Positions 22 through 9,358 of a DNA stretch of 64,000 nt are shown piece by piece. The translations under genes were made by a program, and so were the position numbers. Source of the DNA: Thermodesulfobium sp. 4217-1 (GTDB lineage: Bacteria > Thermodesulfobiota > Thermodesulfobiia > Thermodesulfobiales > Thermodesulfobiaceae); assembly GCF_039822205.1 (NCBI RefSeq), contig NZ_JBAGBW010000009.1:1-64000 (forward strand), given 5' to 3'. The notes under the pieces are model-generated. The model was not told the origin of the DNA, did no database searches, and worked only from the letters and a program-made list of their open reading frames with translations. Position 1 is the first letter of the stretch. Each line of letters begins with the position of its first letter.

Positions 22-516
22 ATGAACTTGATTGACTTAATAATATTAGTATTATTTGTTCTTTCGTTTTTTAGTGGTTACAAGACTGGATTAATAGTGG
101 TTTTTGCTTTTATTTGTGCCTTCTTCTTATCTTTATATCTTGTTCCTCACTTAATAAACATTTCTACCACTTTCTTTTCCAAAGCTCTCCTGTTCAATGG
201 ACACACCCTTATCAGCATCTCTTTTATCTTTACTCTCCTCATGTTAAATGCTTTTATCGGTAAGTTTTTTTTATTGATAGCTGATATATTGGGAATTACA
301 AGAATCTCCAAAAATTCTTTTTTTGCTGGTGCTGTAAATGTCCTTTTGTCCCTCTTGCTCGTTAGTATGGTTATTAAATCTATTGACTGGGCAAATATGT
401 ATATGCTTTTTTCTGCTCAATGGAAGACTTCTCCAGCAATTCATTATTTATTGGAATTAAATAATAATTTTTTTAAAATCATCCCAATTAATTTTTCACT
501 TCCATGGAAAAATTAA
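22..516 (+). CDS. cvpA: CvpA-family membrane protein
   Basis: A 164-residue, very hydrophobic protein with about four membrane segments, at roughly residues 5-22, 25-45, 62-85 and 100-120. It opens with the family's usual start, a short Leu/Ile-rich helix followed by a Gly-x-x-x-Gly turn (SFFSGYKTG). Length and layout fit the CvpA/colicin V production family, inner-membrane proteins of poorly defined role. Its last 13 bases overlap the next gene, so the two are probably translated together. In Bacillus the CvpA-type gene yshB also sits directly before polX, which supports the call. A TGA at 4-6 may end a cut-off upstream gene. The function is inferred from family and position only. Confidence 0.8.
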   Translation: MNLIDLIILVLFVLSFFSGYKTGLIVVFAFICAFFLSLYLVPHLINISTTFFSKALLFNGHTLISISFIFTLLMLNAFIGKFFLLIADILGITRISKNSFFAGAVNVLLSLLLVSMVIKSIDWANMYMLFSAQWKTSPAIHYLLELNNNFFKIIPINFSLPWKN

Positions 517-2225
517 AGTATAAGAGCAATCAAAGAGCGGCTGATGTTGCGAGAAGATTAAAATACATAATTGACTACCACTTTCTTATAGGTATTGGTG
601 ATATTTCAAATTTCAATTATGCGTATGAGCTTGCTGTAAAGTGGAATAATGAGGCCTATAATTTGGTCTTTGGTGATAATAGCAGTAAATTATCGCAGGA
701 TATGAAATTGAAATTAAGAAAGATGTTCTCAGGCCAAAGGATCGATGAAGAGATAGAGATGATTAAAATAAACAGTTTTAATAAAGCTTTTTTCAAATAT
801 TGTGGCAATATCTTAGACGATAATATTTTAATTAATTTTAATATTTTTGGGCCTGTTTCTTTTTATAGGGCATACTCTTTATTTAAAGAATTTAGACAAA
901 TTTTTGATAGTTTTATAGAAAAGTCAAACTTTTATGATTTCTTATTTTTCTACTTTAAGTTTTCTAAAAAACCAATAGGTAAAGCTCTTAAAAGTTATGA
1001 AAAGTTAAAGAAGTGTCTTTCATCTATTGAACCTGTTGGCCCACTTTTAAGATTTGAAGAGCTTATATATCCTTTGGAGTTAATTTCTACAAATGACCTC
1101 AACAATGAAGATCTTAATTTAGATGGCTTTAAATATATCTATAAAACAAACTACTATGTATTACTCTATGACGAGACAAATCAAATTGAGATTAAATTAT
1201 ACTTAATAGATTTTAAAAATTTTTACTTACAGAAGTGGTTTTTGACTGGCTCATTAATTCACAATGATATATTTATTCAGCTTGCTAAGCGAAAGTTCAA
1301 TAATTTTAGAATCTTTAAAGACGGCATTTTTATTGATGGAGTTCGAATTGTCGTTGATGATGAAAAAGACATTTATAGAAAATGCGGCTTTAATTATGTT
1401 CCTCCAGAACTTAGATGTGGAAGTACTGAATTGTTTGCGGATAAAGAGGATTTAAAAACTGTAAAATTCGCTGATATAAAGTCGGATTTACATATTCACA
1501 CAAATTATAGCGATGGCTCTCATACAATTGAGGAATTGTGCGAATTTTATATTGCTAAGGGTTTTCAACATATAGTATTAACCGATCATTCGGTTTCGCT
1601 TACTCAGGGCAGAGGATTGGATATTGAAAAATTAATCGAGAAAAATAATTTGATTGATAAATTAAACAAAAATTTTAAAAACTTTAAGATATTTAAAGGG
1701 GCAGAAGTTGACATATTGCACGATGGATCGCTTGATTATCCAGATTGGATTTTAAGGGATTTGGATTTCGTAGTTGCATCAGTTCATCAAGATTATTCTG
1801 ATAGTGAGGGCGTTATGACTATGAGGTTTAAAAAGGCTATTATGAATCCATACGTACATATGATAGGGCATATTAGTGGTAGGCTTGTAGGCTTCTTGCC
1901 AATTTATAATATTAATTTGAAAAGTTTATTGGAACTTGCCTCTGAATATAAGACTATAATTGAAATAAATGGTAATCCAGCCAGGCTGGATATTGATGTA
2001 AGTTCAATTAGAATGTATAAAGAAAGATTTAAAAATCTATATGCTGTAAATACAGATCTTCACAACATTAGGCAATATGATGTGAGGTTTTTCTGTTCTG
2101 TGATGGCTGCAAGAAAATCTTATTTAAAAAAGAGCGAAATTGTTAATTCACTGAGCACAACTGAGTTTGAGGATTTAATTAGAGCCATTAGAGCTGAAAA
2201 ACTTCTTAAAAATGGCTATATCTGA
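504..2225 (+). CDS. PolX-family protein with intact PHP domain and degenerate polymerase domain
   Basis: The 573-residue length and domain order match bacterial family X DNA polymerases, with an N-terminal Pol-beta-like part and a C-terminal PHP phosphoesterase. The PHP half, from about residue 325, is complete: HxH at 330/332 (SDLHIHTNYSDG), TDH at 360-362, then GAEVDIL, ASVHQ, IGHISGR, NGNPARLD and NTDLHN. The polymerase half is not. Where Bacillus PolX has GSLRR...DLD, this protein has GPLLRFEELIYPLELIST (179-196), and the third catalytic Asp site (VDFR) reads IEIK at 228-231. The linking TGS-x-x-HN segment remains. I infer a metal-dependent phosphoesterase or 3'-end-processing role without nucleotide addition. 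It starts inside cvpA with no clear ribosome binding site, suggesting coupling. Confidence 0.8.
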   Translation: MEKLKYKSNQRAADVARRLKYIIDYHFLIGIGDISNFNYAYELAVKWNNEAYNLVFGDNSSKLSQDMKLKLRKMFSGQRIDEEIEMIKINSFNKAFFKYCGNILDDNILINFNIFGPVSFYRAYSLFKEFRQIFDSFIEKSNFYDFLFFYFKFSKKPIGKALKSYEKLKKCLSSIEPVGPLLRFEELIYPLELISTNDLNNEDLNLDGFKYIYKTNYYVLLYDETNQIEIKLYLIDFKNFYLQKWFLTGSLIHNDIFIQLAKRKFNNFRIFKDGIFIDGVRIVVDDEKDIYRKCGFNYVPPELRCGSTELFADKEDLKTVKFADIKSDLHIHTNYSDGSHTIEELCEFYIAKGFQHIVLTDHSVSLTQGRGLDIEKLIEKNNLIDKLNKNFKNFKIFKGAEVDILHDGSLDYPDWILRDLDFVVASVHQDYSDSEGVMTMRFKKAIMNPYVHMIGHISGRLVGFLPIYNINLKSLLELASEYKTIIEINGNPARLDIDVSSIRMYKERFKNLYAVNTDLHNIRQYDVRFFCSVMAARKSYLKKSEIVNSLSTTEFEDLIRAIRAEKLLKNGYI

Positions 2226-2729: not shown

Positions 2730-5700
2730 ATGAGCTTTGTACATTTACATGTTCATAGTGAATATAGTTTATTGGATGGAGCAAGCAGATTAGAAGACCT
2801 TATTCTAAAGGCTAAAAACAACAACATGCATTCATTTGCTCTTACAGATCACGGAAATATGTATGGAGCCTTAAAGTTTTATTCTTTGGCGAAAAAACAT
2901 GAATTGAAGCCATTAATTGGCTGTGAAGTATATGTCAGTGACGACATGACAAAACAAGTTAGGGCAAATTCTGACCCAGAATCTTACTTGTCTCATCTTA
3001 TACTAATTGCGAAAAATTTCGATGGTTATAAAAACTTAGTTAGGCTTGTTTCTCTTGGATTTCTTAAGGGATTTTATTATAAACCAAGAATTGATCTAAA
3101 AACTTTGTATGAACATAAAGAGGGGCTAATAGTTTCAAGCGCATGTATGTATGGGAGAATACCTCAACTTATTCTTGCCAATAGTCAGGATCGCGCTGTC
3201 GAGATGGCCAAGACGTTGAAAGATTGGTTTGGAGAAGATTTTTACCTTGAGATACAGGATCATGGCTTGGAAGAGGAGAAAAAACTAATTCCTGTAATAA
3301 TAAATATGGCTCAAGATTTGCATATTCCTTTGGTAGCTACAAATGACTCTCACTATACTAATAGAGAAGACGCTGAGTTTCATGATGTTTTGCTGTGTAT
3401 CCAAACGAAGAAGACCGTTCAAGACAAGAATCGTATGAAATTCAATACAGACTCTCTATATTTTAAAACACCTGAAGAAATGACTGATCTTTTTTCATAT
3501 TGTAAGGAAGCCATTGATAATACCCTGGTTCTTGCAGATAAATGTAACCTTGAATTGCCAATTGGCAAGGTAACAGTACCAAAATTCCCCTGCGCAGAAG
3601 GCAAGACTGAAAAGGAATACCTTAATATCTTGATTGAAAATGGCTTAAATCAAAGATATAATGGAGATATATCCAACGAAATAAAAGAGCGTTTAGACTT
3701 TGAGCTTGATATCATAAAGAAAACAGGCTATGAAGGTTATTTTTTAATAGTGTCTGATTATATTAATTATGCCAAAGACCATGGCATTCAAGTGGGTCCG
3801 GGCAGAGGATCTGCTGCTGGGAGCTTGGTAGCGTATATTCTGGGAATAACCGATATAGATCCTTTAAAGTATAATCTTCTTTTTGAGAGATTTTTAAACC
3901 CAGAAAGAGTAAATCCACCTGATATTGACGTTGACTTCTGTATAGAAAAAAGATCCGAGGTTTTAAATTATCTGGTCAAAAGATATGGTCAGGAAAATGT
4001 AGCTCAGATTGGTACCTTTGGGACTATGAACGCAAGGGCTGTAATTAGAGATGTGGGTAGGACCCTGGGCACTCCACTGGGCATAGTGGACAAACTCGCA
4101 AAACTAATTCCAAACAAACCTGGATCTCAGGCTACATTAAGGGAAGCGGAAGAATTGAAGGAAGTAAAGCAATTTCTAAATTCTGATGCATCCCTAAAAG
4201 AACTTTGGGAAAAAAGTGTGAAATTGGAGGGACTAACAAGACATAGCTCTGTTCATGCTGCTGGTGTAGTTATTTCCCCTTTTCCTATTTACGATCTTAT
4301 ACCATTGCAGCGACCTTCTGAGGGCGAGGTTCCTGTAACGCAGTGGTCTATGGAAGATGTTGAAAAATCAGGATTTTTAAAAATGGATCTGCTTGGCTTA
4401 AGGAATTTAACTGTAATTGGCAAAACTCTTGAGCTAATCGAAAAAACCAAAGGTATCAAGATAGATATAGGCAATATTCCTCTTGACGATCCGAAAGTTT
4501 ATGAGCTTTTGGAGAAAGGGGAAGCGCTTGGAGTATTCCAGCTTGAAAGTACAGGAATGCAACAACTTCTAAAGGATGTAAAACCTGATAAATTTGAAGA
4601 TCTAATAGCTATTCTTGCTTTATATAGACCGGGCCCTATGAATTCTGGCATGGTTGAACAGTTTATAAAGCGCAAACATAAAGAAGAGCCTGTAATATTT
4701 GCTCATAAGGATGTTGAACCAATTCTTTCTGAAACTTATGGGGTTATGGTCTATCAAGAGCAGATAATGCAGCTTGCAAGCATCTTGGCTGGTTTTTCTC
4801 TTGGAGAAGCTGATCTTTTGAGAAGAGCTATGGGTAAAAAAAAGGTAGAGGTTATGGCAGCTCAAAAACCAAAATTTGTAGAAGGGGCTGTCAACAAAGG
4901 TTTGATTTCAAGAGAACAGGCTGGGAAGATCTTTGATGATATGGCTAAGTTTGCTGAGTATGGTTTTAATAAATCTCACAGTGCCTCATATGCTTTGGTT
5001 ACTTATAGGACTGCATGGTTAAAGGTTTATCATACTCCTGAGTATATGGCGGCTCTGCTTTCATCTGTATCGTCTGATACCGATAAAGTTGCCGAATACA
5101 TTAAGGAAGCTAAGAAATTTGGTGTTGAAGTATTGTCTCCTGATGTAAATGAAAGTGGAGAGAATTTTACTGTTATAGGAAACAAAATCAGATTTGGTCT
5201 TTCTGCCATCAAGGGTGTTGGCAAGGCTGCAATAGAATCAATATTGACAAATAGAGATGCAGATGGAAATTTTAAAAATTTAAAGGATTTCATTTGCAGG
5301 ACGAGTTCAAAAGCCGTTAATAGGAAAATTTATGAAAACCTTATCAAGGCTGGAGCTCTTGATAATCTATATGAAGACAGGTTAAGCCTTTTGGATCAGC
5401 TCGATCAGGTTCTGGCTTCTTCAAAGAAAAGCACAAAGAACGAAAATGGCCAAAGCCTTTTTGGTGAATCTTTTGAGGAGGAAGAGCTATATATCTCTAA
5501 TGATATAGAAATCATTCCAAAAAAAGATTTCGACCCTGGCTTGAAACTTGCTTTTGAAAAAGAAGTTCTTGGGCTTTATGTTAGCGGACATCCGCTTACA
5601 CCATATAAATTTTTGCTTGAAAGCATATCAAATTATAGTGTTGCAGCTTTAAATGAACTGGATATAGATAAGGCAAAAATTTCTGGAATTGTCTTTAACA

Positions 5701-6146
5701 AAAAACAAGTTTTTAAAAAAGATGGCTCATTCTTCTTTGTATTAAACATAGAGGATCTAACGGGAAGCGTTGAGTGTGTTTTTACTAAAAAAGATAAATC
5801 TTTGATTGATGATATAAAAGAAAATGATATTGTGTGGGTTGAGGGTAGGCTTTTAAAAAGAGATGAAGGATCAAGGATAATTATCGATCAGATTGGTAAG
5901 ATTAATAGAAAGGTGTTTCATATAAAATTTTATAGCAAGTTGTGTTCAGAGGGTTCTGTTATGAAATTGAAGGAAGAACTGTCAAACTTAAAGGGCGATG
6001 TGCCATTGGTAATTCATTTTATGTCTGATGAAACAGAAAAACTTTGCTTGGCTGACTCTAATTATTTTGTAAACTCAGAGACCGATATAAAAGAGAAAAT
6101 TAATCAATTTAGAGGTGTAGAATGTTGGATAGAACAAGAGGGCTGA
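2730..6146 (+). CDS. dnaE: DNA polymerase III alpha subunit
   Basis: The catalytic subunit of the replicative polymerase holoenzyme, 1138 residues, normal for DnaE (not PolC: there is no inserted exonuclease). It begins with the PHP domain (FVHLHVHSEYSLLDGA, 3-18). The palm carries PDIDVDF at 397-403 and KMDLLGLR with Asp553, giving the three catalytic aspartates. GPGRGSAAGS and the finger motif YRPGPM follow. Helix-hairpin-helix residues come after residue 800 and an OB-fold near 970-1050 (AKISGIVFNKKQ...VECVF). ATG 2730 is preceded by GAAGGG at a good distance. It is the last gene of the opening operon; the next gene has its own leader. Confidence 0.97.
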   Translation: MSFVHLHVHSEYSLLDGASRLEDLILKAKNNNMHSFALTDHGNMYGALKFYSLAKKHELKPLIGCEVYVSDDMTKQVRANSDPESYLSHLILIAKNFDGYKNLVRLVSLGFLKGFYYKPRIDLKTLYEHKEGLIVSSACMYGRIPQLILANSQDRAVEMAKTLKDWFGEDFYLEIQDHGLEEEKKLIPVIINMAQDLHIPLVATNDSHYTNREDAEFHDVLLCIQTKKTVQDKNRMKFNTDSLYFKTPEEMTDLFSYCKEAIDNTLVLADKCNLELPIGKVTVPKFPCAEGKTEKEYLNILIENGLNQRYNGDISNEIKERLDFELDIIKKTGYEGYFLIVSDYINYAKDHGIQVGPGRGSAAGSLVAYILGITDIDPLKYNLLFERFLNPERVNPPDIDVDFCIEKRSEVLNYLVKRYGQENVAQIGTFGTMNARAVIRDVGRTLGTPLGIVDKLAKLIPNKPGSQATLREAEELKEVKQFLNSDASLKELWEKSVKLEGLTRHSSVHAAGVVISPFPIYDLIPLQRPSEGEVPVTQWSMEDVEKSGFLKMDLLGLRNLTVIGKTLELIEKTKGIKIDIGNIPLDDPKVYELLEKGEALGVFQLESTGMQQLLKDVKPDKFEDLIAILALYRPGPMNSGMVEQFIKRKHKEEPVIFAHKDVEPILSETYGVMVYQEQIMQLASILAGFSLGEADLLRRAMGKKKVEVMAAQKPKFVEGAVNKGLISREQAGKIFDDMAKFAEYGFNKSHSASYALVTYRTAWLKVYHTPEYMAALLSSVSSDTDKVAEYIKEAKKFGVEVLSPDVNESGENFTVIGNKIRFGLSAIKGVGKAAIESILTNRDADGNFKNLKDFICRTSSKAVNRKIYENLIKAGALDNLYEDRLSLLDQLDQVLASSKKSTKNENGQSLFGESFEEEELYISNDIEIIPKKDFDPGLKLAFEKEVLGLYVSGHPLTPYKFLLESISNYSVAALNELDIDKAKISGIVFNKKQVFKKDGSFFFVLNIEDLTGSVECVFTKKDKSLIDDIKENDIVWVEGRLLKRDEGSRIIIDQIGKINRKVFHIKFYSKLCSEGSVMKLKEELSNLKGDVPLVIHFMSDETEKLCLADSNYFVNSETDIKEKINQFRGVECWIEQEG

Positions 6147-6231: not shown

Positions 6232-7446
6232 ATGATAAAGTCGCCATCAGGTTCTATGGATATGATACCTGAAGAGGTTTTTTGTAGGAACACAATTGAA
6301 AATAAAATCAAGAATTTCTGGGAAAAAAATGGTTTTGTCAGAGTAAGCACTCCTATCATAGAACATTGGGACAAATTACAAGTGGCTCTTGGCGAGAACC
6401 TTGTTGATAAAACAATTAGATTTATTGACAGATTTGGAGAGGTTAGTGTTCTGAGTCCTGATTTAACTGTATCAATCGCTCGAATGGTTTCGACTAGGAA
6501 GAAAAATGGTCCTTTCCCTTTAAAGTACTTTTACTTAGGCGATGTCTTCAGAGTTACTTCTGAGCAAAGTGAGATAAGACAATGCGGTGTTGAGATTATT
6601 GGTGCAGATAAACGAAGTATAGCCGACGTTGAATTGGCTGTGCTTATTTTTATGACCTTAAGAGAATTAGGACTGAACAATATATATCTTGAGATTGGCA
6701 ACTTTGAAACATTAAGAGAACTGTTAAAATTAGAAATACTTGATGATTATAGACAACTTATAATTGATGCCCTTTTAAAAAAAGATTGGGTTAGTTTAAA
6801 TGATATTGCAAACAAAGTTTCTGATCCTAAAATTTCAGAATTTATTAAAAATCTTCCAAAACTTACTGGAACCCCTGAGGAGGTTTTCTCAAATATTGAT
6901 TTAATTCCTGACTTTTTGATTCCAGGTATGAAGAACCTTGAAAATATCAGTAAAGAGATAAAAAATGCTGGCGTTAAACACTATATTAATCTTGCCTTGG
7001 TTAATGAGATTTCTTATTATACGGGTTTCATTTTTCAAGTTTTTGTTACAGGATCGCCAAGGTCTATCGGTGGAGGGGGTAGATATGATGATTTGTATTC
7101 TTTGTTTAATTTTAAATGTCCCTCTTCTGGTTTTGGGATTAATGTAGATAAAATTTATGAAATTCTCAAAGCCTCGTATTTTAAGGCCATTAATACTGAT
7201 GTGCTTTTGTGTTTCAACGATGGGATACCTTTGCACTGGGTATGGAATATGGCAGCTTCATATAGAGATCAGGGAATTAAGGTTGAGATAGATTTGAAGA
7301 GCAGGGTTTTTGAAGAAGCCATAGAGTTTTCCAAGAAAAAAAAGGCTCAAAGGATGGTTTATATATTAAAATTAGAATCATCTGGAATTTCTGGTTGGAT
7401 AGTTGATACTCATAATGAAAACAAAGAAAGGATGACCTTTTGCTAA
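6232..7446 (+). CDS. hisZ: ATP phosphoribosyltransferase regulatory subunit HisZ
   Basis: A 404-residue paralogue of histidyl-tRNA synthetase that serves as the regulatory partner of short-form HisG in the first step of histidine synthesis. It shows the HisRS-like core: a motif 1 region (NGFVRVSTPIIEHWDKL), a motif 2 region (KYFYLGDVFR), and the late GGGRYDDL loop (about 282-289). It ends shortly after a reduced C-terminal region, and the HisRS anticodon-binding domain is not clearly present. The next gene is a short HisG, which needs HisZ, so context and sequence agree. AGAGAGG precedes ATG 6232. It overlaps hisG by a few bases. A true HisRS is the alternative, but the length and the hisG neighbour speak against it. 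Confidence 0.88.
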   Translation: MIKSPSGSMDMIPEEVFCRNTIENKIKNFWEKNGFVRVSTPIIEHWDKLQVALGENLVDKTIRFIDRFGEVSVLSPDLTVSIARMVSTRKKNGPFPLKYFYLGDVFRVTSEQSEIRQCGVEIIGADKRSIADVELAVLIFMTLRELGLNNIYLEIGNFETLRELLKLEILDDYRQLIIDALLKKDWVSLNDIANKVSDPKISEFIKNLPKLTGTPEEVFSNIDLIPDFLIPGMKNLENISKEIKNAGVKHYINLALVNEISYYTGFIFQVFVTGSPRSIGGGGRYDDLYSLFNFKCPSSGFGINVDKIYEILKASYFKAINTDVLLCFNDGIPLHWVWNMAASYRDQGIKVEIDLKSRVFEEAIEFSKKKKAQRMVYILKLESSGISGWIVDTHNENKERMTFC

Positions 7447-8069
7447 TGCTTAAAATTGCTGTTCCAAAAGGCGTTTTATTTGAACCATCTTTGAAGCTAT
7501 TACAGAATTGCGGTTACAGCGTTCCGTCAGATTTTGGCAGAAAGCTTTTGATTGAAGATTCTAAACAAGAACTGTCTTTGATAATTGTTAGGCCATTTGA
7601 TATGCCTCTTTATGTGGAAGAAGGCGTTGTTGATATAGCTTTTGTGGGAAAAGATGTTATTGAAGAAACTTCAATGGCCTGTTTTGAACTCATGGATTTG
7701 GGATATGGTCTTTGCAGACTCTCAGTTGCTGTTCCAAAGTATAGCTCTTATAGATCGGTAGACGAATTTCATCCATTTATAAAAATTGGTTCAAAATATC
7801 AAAATCTCGCTGAAAAATATTTTATGCAAAAGGGCATGCAAGTTAGGATCTTTCCTCTTGGAGGATCTGTAGAGATTTCACCTATAGTCGGCTTGTCTGA
7901 GGCTATAATTGATCTTGTGTCAACTGGGAACACATTGAAGGCTAACAATTTAGTAGAAATTGAAACAATTTTGCTTTCAACTTCACGTTTGGTAGCAAAT
8001 GACGCTAATTATAGGTTAAAGAGAAAAGAAATAAACAGTTTTATTACAAAGATAAATGGAGGGATCTGA
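7440..8069 (+). CDS. hisG: ATP phosphoribosyltransferase catalytic subunit (short form)
   Basis: A 209-residue HisG of the short class, which lacks the C-terminal ACT-like regulatory domain and works in a hetero-octamer with HisZ. It condenses ATP and PRPP to phosphoribosyl-ATP. Visible features are the N-terminal IAVPKGVLFEPS strand-loop, VVDIAFVGKDV and the PRPP-binding region IIDLVSTGNTLKANNL. TTG 7440 is the best start because AAAGGA lies 7 bases upstream; ATG 7446 is too far from it. The start overlaps the hisZ stop, and the stop overlaps the hisD start as ATGA. Confidence 0.93.
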   Translation: MLMLKIAVPKGVLFEPSLKLLQNCGYSVPSDFGRKLLIEDSKQELSLIIVRPFDMPLYVEEGVVDIAFVGKDVIEETSMACFELMDLGYGLCRLSVAVPKYSSYRSVDEFHPFIKIGSKYQNLAEKYFMQKGMQVRIFPLGGSVEISPIVGLSEAIIDLVSTGNTLKANNLVEIETILLSTSRLVANDANYRLKRKEINSFITKINGGI

Positions 8070-9358
8070 TGAGATTTGTTGATGACTTTCTTTTACTGAA
8101 AAAAGAAGCTGAACTTCAAAGACTTTGGAAGAGAGAATCGTCTTTTCAAGATAATAAAACCTTAGATGATGTGGCAAGGATTATAAATGATATTAAGTTA
8201 AGAGGGATGGAAGCAATAAAAGAATATTCTAAAAAATTTGATGATTATGATCTATCTATGGGTTTGGTGGCATCCGATGAAGAAGTGCTTTCTCAAGCGA
8301 AACTTGTTCCATTAGATGTATCTGAGGCTTTAAAATATTCAGCCAAAAGGATAAGACAATATCATGAAAGTATAAAATTTGATTCATTTAAATATGAGAC
8401 AGAAGAATCAGAGTCTGGTTTCAAGTGGACTCCAATAGAAAATATAGGAATTTATGTGCCTGGCGGCTTGACTGCATACCCGTCGTCAATCCTTATGACA
8501 GTTATTGTTGCAGATGTTGCTGGCGTTAAAAACATCTATGTCTGCTCCAAGCCAAATAAGGGCAAGATAAACCCATATATAGCTTCGGCTATTTTAGCTT
8601 GCAATACTAAGAGATTGAAGGTTATAAAGCTTTCAGGCATTCAAGCTATATCTTCAATGGCTATGGGTTTGGGAATTAAGAAAGTTGACAAGATTTTTGG
8701 CCCAGGTAATGATTACGTTAGTCTTGCGAAAAAGCAATTTTTCGGGGAAGTTTCTATTGACATGATGGCTGGACCCTCTGAAATACTCATAGTTTCTGAT
8801 GGCAAGGTAGATCCTTCATGGATTGCGTGGGATTTTCTATCTCAAGCAGAACACGATGTAAATGCAAAAACTGGTCTAATATCTACAGATGTTAATTTCT
8901 TAAATGAAGTGATGTTAAAGGTAAAAGAATTTTCTGGGAAGATTTTGAATAAACACATTGTTGAGTCTTCGCTCCAGAGCTCATTTTTCGGTTTTGCTCC
9001 TGCTCTTGAGGATGCAATAAGCATTTCAAATATTTTAGCACCTGAACATCTGGAGATTGCATGTGAGAATTCCGAAGAACTTTTTGAAAAGGTGCAGAAT
9101 GCTGGTACAGTGTTTTTGGGGAGCTTGACGTGTGAGCCATTTGGAGATTACATTCTTGGTCCAAGTCATGTTTTGCCCACGTCTGGTAGCGCGCGATATT
9201 TTTCTGGAATAAACGTATATGATTTTTTGAAGAGAGTAAATTTTTCGAAAATTAAGAATAAAAATTCTCTGAAAAAGCTGTTGAGCGCCTCTTTAATTGC
9301 AGAAATAGAAGGTTTTAGTGCACATAAAAACGCAATGACTTGTAGAGATACTGATTAG
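8069..9358 (+). CDS. hisD: Histidinol dehydrogenase
   Basis: Catalyses the last two steps of histidine synthesis, histidinol to histidine with two NAD+, using a zinc ion. The 429-residue length is typical. Recognisable parts are IGIYVPGGLTAYPSS, KVDKIFGPGNDYV, the QAEHD zinc region, APEHLEI with the catalytic pair Glu326/His327, and the final SGSARYFSGINVYDF. The start is ATG 8069, overlapping the hisG stop, with GGAGGG upstream. No other his genes follow, so the rest of the pathway must lie elsewhere. Confidence 0.96.
   Translation: MRFVDDFLLLKKEAELQRLWKRESSFQDNKTLDDVARIINDIKLRGMEAIKEYSKKFDDYDLSMGLVASDEEVLSQAKLVPLDVSEALKYSAKRIRQYHESIKFDSFKYETEESESGFKWTPIENIGIYVPGGLTAYPSSILMTVIVADVAGVKNIYVCSKPNKGKINPYIASAILACNTKRLKVIKLSGIQAISSMAMGLGIKKVDKIFGPGNDYVSLAKKQFFGEVSIDMMAGPSEILIVSDGKVDPSWIAWDFLSQAEHDVNAKTGLISTDVNFLNEVMLKVKEFSGKILNKHIVESSLQSSFFGFAPALEDAISISNILAPEHLEIACENSEELFEKVQNAGTVFLGSLTCEPFGDYILGPSHVLPTSGSARYFSGINVYDFLKRVNFSKIKNKNSLKKLLSASLIAEIEGFSAHKNAMTCRDTD

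Follow-up and report, generated by a model that had tools for sequence, protein, structure and literature searches.

A Thermodesulfobium PolX with an altered polymerase triad and an intact PHP metal site: a probable nuclease-only protein of the noncanonical class

What might a PolX protein do when the residues of its polymerase site have been replaced? This question is raised by a gene at the beginning of the window, by which we mean the whole 64,000-nucleotide stretch of Thermodesulfobium sp. 4217-1 DNA that was analysed. The open reading frame at positions 504-2225 of the forward strand starts with ATG, contains no internal stop codon and encodes 573 amino acids. An earlier interpretation made from the DNA alone (hereafter, the sequence-only reading) had assigned the protein to PolX, the DNA-repair polymerases of family X that are fused to a PHP domain, and our searches agree with this assignment. 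The NCBIfam PolX model matches residues 220-560 with 292 bits, below its curated cut-off of 426; two Pfam families, PHP (55.3 bits) and DNA_pol_B_thumb (35.2 bits), score above their cut-offs; a sequence search of the PDB returned Thermus PolX (E 1.6e-45), Deinococcus PolX (E 1.4e-41) and then, weakly, YcdX; and the modelled fold is that of PolX. The uninterrupted frame noted in that reading is intact, at 573 amino acids and 65-96% identity, in all four Thermodesulfobium genomes compared here, namely the source genome (G000; 2.0 Mb in 69 contigs) and G001, G002 and G003, each of which also has a dsrA match over the cut-off. These four were part of a profile search of 60 genomes, the remaining 56 of which share only the domain with the source. 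With the A1 profile at 1e-30, each of the four yielded one PolX and no second copy, and PF14792, sought as a mark of a backup canonical PolX, gave no match in any of them, this being a weak profile that exceeded its cut-off in 0 of 14 controls. A scan of genome contigs for relatives found two, and the PolX records of the plasmid and phage collections (36 and 6, respectively) were without exception distant, with less than 60% identity and none covering 80% of the query. We infer that polX has been inherited by vertical descent.

The palm, at residues 158-245 (975-1238, forward strand), was located by alignments and HHalign and adopts a palm fold in the structure model. It includes the motif GPLLRFEELIYPLELIST (residues 179-196), in which G179-P/S-L/F-L-R183 replaces GSxRR and, on alignment with relatives, the two DxD positions correspond to Pro190 (codon 1071-1073) and Glu192 (codon 1077-1079). 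The third catalytic position corresponds to Lys231 (codon 1194-1196; all three codons were counted from residue numbers on the forward strand), as indicated by several alignments. First, in the phmmer alignment with Thermus PolX, which is gapless from residue 226 to the end of the TGS motif, Lys231 stands opposite Asp243, a number obtained by counting along the chain. Second, MAFFT alignments of 52, 5 and 30 PolX sequences, differing in membership, each placed Lys231 on the third Asp. Third, HHalign did so when the genus was compared with 41 independently aligned DDD sequences, with a confidence digit of 6 (global) or 7 (local) out of 9. The spacing from Lys231 to TGS is the 17 residues of the third Asp, or 16 in two relatives with a one-residue deletion. 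Taking the catalytic residues of Thermus PolX to be Asp198, Asp200 and Asp243, the equivalents here would be P190, E192 and K231. Because phmmer, MAFFT and HHalign all place Lys231 on the third Asp, the Asp-Asp-Asp triad most likely reads Pro190-Glu192-Lys231 (PEK) in all four genomes of the genus, in which G179, R183, P190, E192, E229 and K231 are invariant.

The sequence-only reading had equated IEIK with the VDFR of the third site, a pairing that is two residues out of register because the alignments match Lys231, and not Glu229 two residues upstream, with the third Asp. Its view that all three carboxylates were lost was overstated: those at Pro190 and Lys231 are gone, but the middle Asp-to-Glu change leaves a carboxylate in place. 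Two of the three carboxylates are thus absent from P-E-K, and one of the three would be absent from P-E-E, the least altered triad, which its register would give; the aligned triad is altered in either register. The change extends to all four genomes of the genus, as the search for the same substitutions in related genomes revealed, and sequence alignment did not find acids at all three catalytic positions.

Might the palm still be an active polymerase that binds its metals through Glu192 and Glu229? Both residues are the same in all genus members, the fold of palm and fingers persists in the model, and the fingers, at residues 246-325 (1239-1478, forward strand; assigned from alignment columns, with PF14791 matching residues 247-305 at 35.2 bits), retain part of the dNTP site. 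Their motif FLTGSLIHN preserves TGS (TGT in two relatives) and Asn254, while the steric gate YF or HF has become FL and the Lys has become Leu. Residues 228-234 form one strand in the model, and Glu229, Lys231 and Tyr233 should therefore face the same side, so that the strand by itself favours neither Glu229 nor Lys231 as the third residue. Against an active palm, the first Asp is Pro in all four genomes, the third site falls on Lys231 rather than Glu229 by phmmer, the three MAFFT sets and HHalign, and even the milder triad AEE is reported to leave Deinococcus PolX without polymerase activity (PMC9226535). We therefore regard an active P-E-E palm as very unlikely and assign the third position, probably, to Lys231. 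The dimensions of the palm count against a polymerase-dead protein, in that it is shorter than in canonical relatives by only 4 to 5 residues: the stretch G179-T248 has 70 or 69 residues, compared with a mean of 73.7 (range 56-76) in the 41 DDD sequences, and the fingers stretch is not shortened (83 residues versus a mean of 85 in the same sequences). On the strength of the altered triad, polymerase activity has very probably been lost.

An AlphaFold2 model of residues 150-573, built from 17 sequences, has a pLDDT of 89.1 and a pTM of 0.86. Its best Foldseek match is Thermus PolX (3auo, E 7.2e-36), and VIA-align matched it to Thermus PolX 3au6 (Z 42.0, rmsd 2.3, 401 residues aligned) and to Deinococcus PolX 2w9m (Z 38.9, rmsd 2.9, 403 aligned). 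Taken alone, residues 1-157 in the numbering of the model resemble human Pol lambda and Pol beta with Z of about 17 (rmsd 2.0-2.5, 151-161 aligned). From these Foldseek and VIA-align matches, the palm and fingers are therefore predicted to be retained as a fold.

The PHP domain occupies residues 326-573 (1479-2222, forward strand), as defined by Pfam and the alignment, and in the model it resembles YcdX (Z 26.8) and histidinol-phosphatase-type PHP proteins (Z about 20; 20.0 for the HisK-type fold). The sequence-only reading was correct in describing its metal-ligand motifs as intact: the alignment identified all nine residues of the HHHEHHEDH set (H330, H332, H362, E401, H428, H456, E487, D518 and H520), and these do not vary among the four members of the genus. 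Among the 52 aligned PolX proteins, 48 have the full set, three have Gln as the first ligand and one is cut by a contig end. Gln at this position has been reported for Thermus PolX (PMC9226535).

The N-terminal region, residues 1-157 (504-974, forward strand), differs from that of most PolX in that profile searches recognised no HhH module (HHH_8 or HHH_5) there. HHH_8 was found in none of the four genus genomes, and neither HHH_8 nor HHH_5 was found in any of the four genus PolX proteins. In comparison, HHH_8 lies in the PolX frame in 31 of the 32 non-genus copies and in 30/30 of their genomes, when matches at E 1e-30 or better are counted, weaker ones are excluded and the results are cross-read by eye. 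The single miss is a second PolX copy, at G016:C29:77967-79010; the first copy in that genome matches. HHH_8 and HHH_5 were each found in 11 of the 13 members of alignment A2, which contains two genus members, and each in all six altered PolX from outside the genus. A full-length 8-kDa HhH domain is reported in 95.3% of all PolX and is therefore usual, not defining (PMC9226535); in the Thermodesulfobium protein it is not recognisable. Over alignment columns 118-179, the genus has 62 residues where most relatives have 84, and 19 of the first 20 residues of the protein are invariant across the genus. Considering this invariance, the missing HhH matches and the shorter segment, the N-terminus is therefore, as judged from sequence, constrained but remodelled. 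An earlier model built from six sequences (pLDDT 54), used only for this region, predicted it to be helical at low confidence.

The gene lies in a conserved setting. Upstream, at 22-516 on the same strand, an open reading frame for a 164-residue CvpA-like membrane protein overlaps polX by 13 bp, and both its length and this overlap are identical in G001, G003 and G002; the cvpA neighbour pointed out in the sequence-only reading is thus present in all four genomes, although its Colicin_V score of 21.9 bits is below the Pfam cut-off of 29.3. Downstream, on the forward strand throughout, a 163-residue frame with a TTG start, a hydrophobic stretch near its N-terminus and no Pfam family (2237-2728) lies between polX and dnaE; its counterparts have 151 residues in G001 and G003 and 163 in G002. 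It is followed by dnaE (2730-6146; identified by profile matches), which encodes DNA polymerase III alpha with a PHP domain of its own, and by hisZ-like, hisG and hisD genes (6232-9358; identified by Pfam on the G001 orthologues). The order in G001, determined by Pfam with cvpA below the cut-off, is pheS-pheT-cvpA-polX-ORF-dnaE-hisZ-hisG-hisD. As judged by length, the G003 frames follow one another in this order and equal or nearly equal their counterparts, and G002 agrees up to hisG, where its contig ends; the source contig begins just before cvpA, so that pheST is outside the view. The pheST-cvpA-polX setting presumably resembles that of Firmicutes, our own comparison of gene order being within the genus.

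The his genes suggest another role, in which the substrate of the PHP domain is no longer DNA but a small-molecule phosphate ester such as histidinol phosphate. They come after dnaE on the strand that carries polX, the HhH modules are lost, and PolX is the best match to the HisJ family in all four genus genomes. However, its HisJ (TIGR01856) scores of 28.7-34.2 bits are far below the cut-off of 90.2, so that no HisJ exceeds the cut-off in any of the four genomes though hisZ, hisG and hisD follow dnaE; its PHP ligands, palm and fingers are of the PolX type; and dnaE intervenes between polX and the his genes. Furthermore, there are other candidates for the missing histidinol phosphatase, an IMPase-family protein (L106; HisN 166 bits against a cut-off of 275) and a HAD-family protein (L114; over the Histidinol-ppas subfamily cut-off, with a GmhB-like best model), neither of which is over an equivalog cut-off. 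Taken together, these observations make a histidinol-phosphate role highly improbable.

Is polX instead decaying, its polymerase half drifting without a selected function? We calculated dN/dS by the Nei-Gojobori method for the two measurable pairs, G000/G002 and G001/G003; the counts in the close pair are small, and between G000 and G001 most segments show saturation at synonymous sites. The polymerase half gave 0.135 and 0.153 and the PHP domain 0.078 and 0.062, respectively, and across all segments of both pairs the values range from 0.06 to 0.27. Loss of the HhH motifs could be taken as a sign of decay, as could the palm being the segment with the highest dN/dS in both pairs (0.25 and 0.27); the palm exceeds the PHP domain significantly in G001/G003 (Fisher, p 0.004), the difference not being significant in G000/G002 (p 0.15). 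Yet even the palm is below neutral (p 0.014 and 0.002), as are the polymerase half (binomial test, p 6e-10 and 4e-19) and, in the one pair tested, the N-terminus, for which dN/dS is 0.13 and 0.12; the 573-residue frame is intact in all four genomes, and the position of polX is fixed within the genus. With dN/dS of about 0.14 in the polymerase half and 0.07 in the PHP domain, the gene is therefore not decaying, and ongoing decay seems to us exceedingly improbable. Purifying selection on both parts and the conserved gene order bear out the earlier view that the gene is selected.

How did the altered triad arise? From 72 loci, which were the best-scoring hits and not a random PolX sample, 52 proteins were aligned after duplicates and loci lacking a PolX frame were dropped; one of these, L032, is truncated where its contig ends. 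Forty-five of the 51 non-genus PolX in the alignment used for a tree keep three acids (44 DDD, 1 DDE), and six have altered triads (NNH, SET, NDD, CEK, GDA and HDR). In a tree of 55 sequences, built from columns outside the triad, the genus forms a clade with 100/100 support on a branch of 1.51, nested among canonical sequences where support for the backbone is poor. As regards a grouping with the main Bacteroidetes/Deinococcus cluster of noncanonical PolX, it is not joined to the Chitinophaga-titled L032 (HDR). An AU test mildly rejected a clade of the genus with L032 (p 0.037) and did not reject one with L026, L028 and L012 (p 0.084), both groupings having been named after the tree was seen, which weakens the test. 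The polymerase site was possibly lost independently in Thermodesulfobium, and the resemblance of the CEK triad of L026 to PEK may be convergent. Both L026 (649-2352; CEK) and L007 (1468-3222, reverse strand; SET) come from genomes of other families and keep both HhH modules. We also observed full-length PolX with PHP in the IMG/VR contigs L073, L074, L075, L077, L078 and L097, with DDD in L073-L075, and PolX palm and thumb within 901- and 869-residue proteins of the viral contigs (IMG/VR) L087 (1877-4579) and L088 (2174-4780), the remaining parts of which gave no Pfam match at E 0.001.

The altered triad, the intact PHP ligands, the modelled fold, the purifying selection and the gene order are together best read as those of a PolX that is dead as a polymerase and maintained for its PHP nuclease, in line with the phosphoesterase or nuclease scaffold of the sequence-only reading. 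With considerable confidence, we consider the protein to be a noncanonical PolX that cannot polymerise and whose PHP domain works as a Mn2+-dependent 3'-5' exonuclease trimming 3' ends in DNA repair. With Pro-Glu-Lys as its triad, the palm could no longer hold two catalytic metals and would therefore not support DNA polymerisation, and palm and fingers would persist as a structural scaffold. The C-terminal PHP domain, with its complete metal site, would supply the exonuclease, which is most likely its role in repair, and it might in addition show the AP-endonuclease or 3'-phosphatase activity that has been reported for PolX PHP domains. Since recognisable HhH modules have been lost in the genus, the protein probably contacts DNA in another way than other PolX do. 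In this way we infer, together, the loss of polymerase activity, the exonuclease activity, the repair role and the changed DNA binding.

We considered, too, which repair partners the genus encodes. The idea that PolX is the sole AP-endonuclease is weakened because PF01261 and PF03372 proteins, identified at the level of these broad families rather than as Nfo or XthA, are over the cut-off in all four genus genomes. That PolX is the only proofreader for DnaE is disfavoured because DnaE carries its own PHP domain with the expected motifs. Ku, a possible end-joining partner, had no match in the four genus genomes and was found in one of 14 controls. More tentatively, we speculate that Thermodesulfobium PolX represents an independently derived lineage lacking both the polymerase site and the HhH modules, with a conserved but remodelled helical N-terminus, in which a partner protein or a new DNA-binding surface would bring the PHP nuclease to DNA, perhaps in step with the adjacent dnaE; we hold this fuller scenario to be possible but rather doubtful.

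The favoured reading, a PHP nuclease in a polymerase-dead PolX, has precedents. Prostova 2022 (PMC9226535) reports that noncanonical PolX have lost polymerase activity and are active 3'-5' exonucleases, that triads are altered in 27.5% of prokaryotic PolX, that Deinococcus PolX proteins with the triads AEE and ARE are strong Mn2+ exonucleases without polymerase activity, and that one Asp-to-Ala change abolishes the polymerase activity of B. subtilis PolX. The protein described here has the marks of this class, namely the fold, at least one catalytic acid replaced by a non-acidic residue (Pro190 in 4/4, and Lys231) and an intact PHP site. As for two other traits of the class, a degraded dNTP site (steric gate, Lys, GS and Asn) and deletions in palm or fingers, the latter being frequent but not general, its gate and Lys are replaced, TGS or TGT and Asn254 are kept, the palm is 4 to 5 residues shorter and the fingers are not shortened. 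Like Deinococcus radiodurans PolX (2w9m, AEE), it combines a PolX fold and an altered triad with an intact HHHEHHEDH site, but its triad is PEK, its HHH_8 and HHH_5 are unrecognisable and the Asn of its dNTP site is kept. It shares the palm-fingers-PHP order of the canonical Thermus thermophilus (3au2, 3au6) and Bacillus subtilis PolX, from which it differs in the replacement of the catalytic Asp residues by P190, E192 and K231 and in its unrecognisable HhH modules. As in the actinobacterial PolX-like proteins reported to lack the polymerase region (PMC12926913), the PHP nuclease part is kept and polymerisation would be absent; unlike in those proteins, palm and fingers are present and folded in the model, and the HhH part is unrecognisable.

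The class having been published in 2022, the Thermodesulfobium protein is not a new kind of PolX. What is new is a lineage not named in the 2022 main text and the loss of recognisable HhH modules, a more stripped-down form. The string 'Thermodesulfobi' is absent from the main texts of PMC9226535 and PMC12926913, whose supplementary tables may include the lineage, and our literature search found no paper combining PolX and Thermodesulfobium. Polymerase function may have disappeared from PolX on a separate occasion here, in a lineage that the main text of the 2022 survey leaves unnamed. The case also lends support to the published conclusion that PolX retains its PHP nuclease more strongly than its polymerase; a 2026 survey reports that 95% of PolX1 have conserved PHP sites and 75% conserved polymerase sites (PMC12926913). 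Finally, in a genus without a Ku match, the loss of recognisable HhH modules makes the protein a natural case for asking which parts of PolX the nuclease requires.
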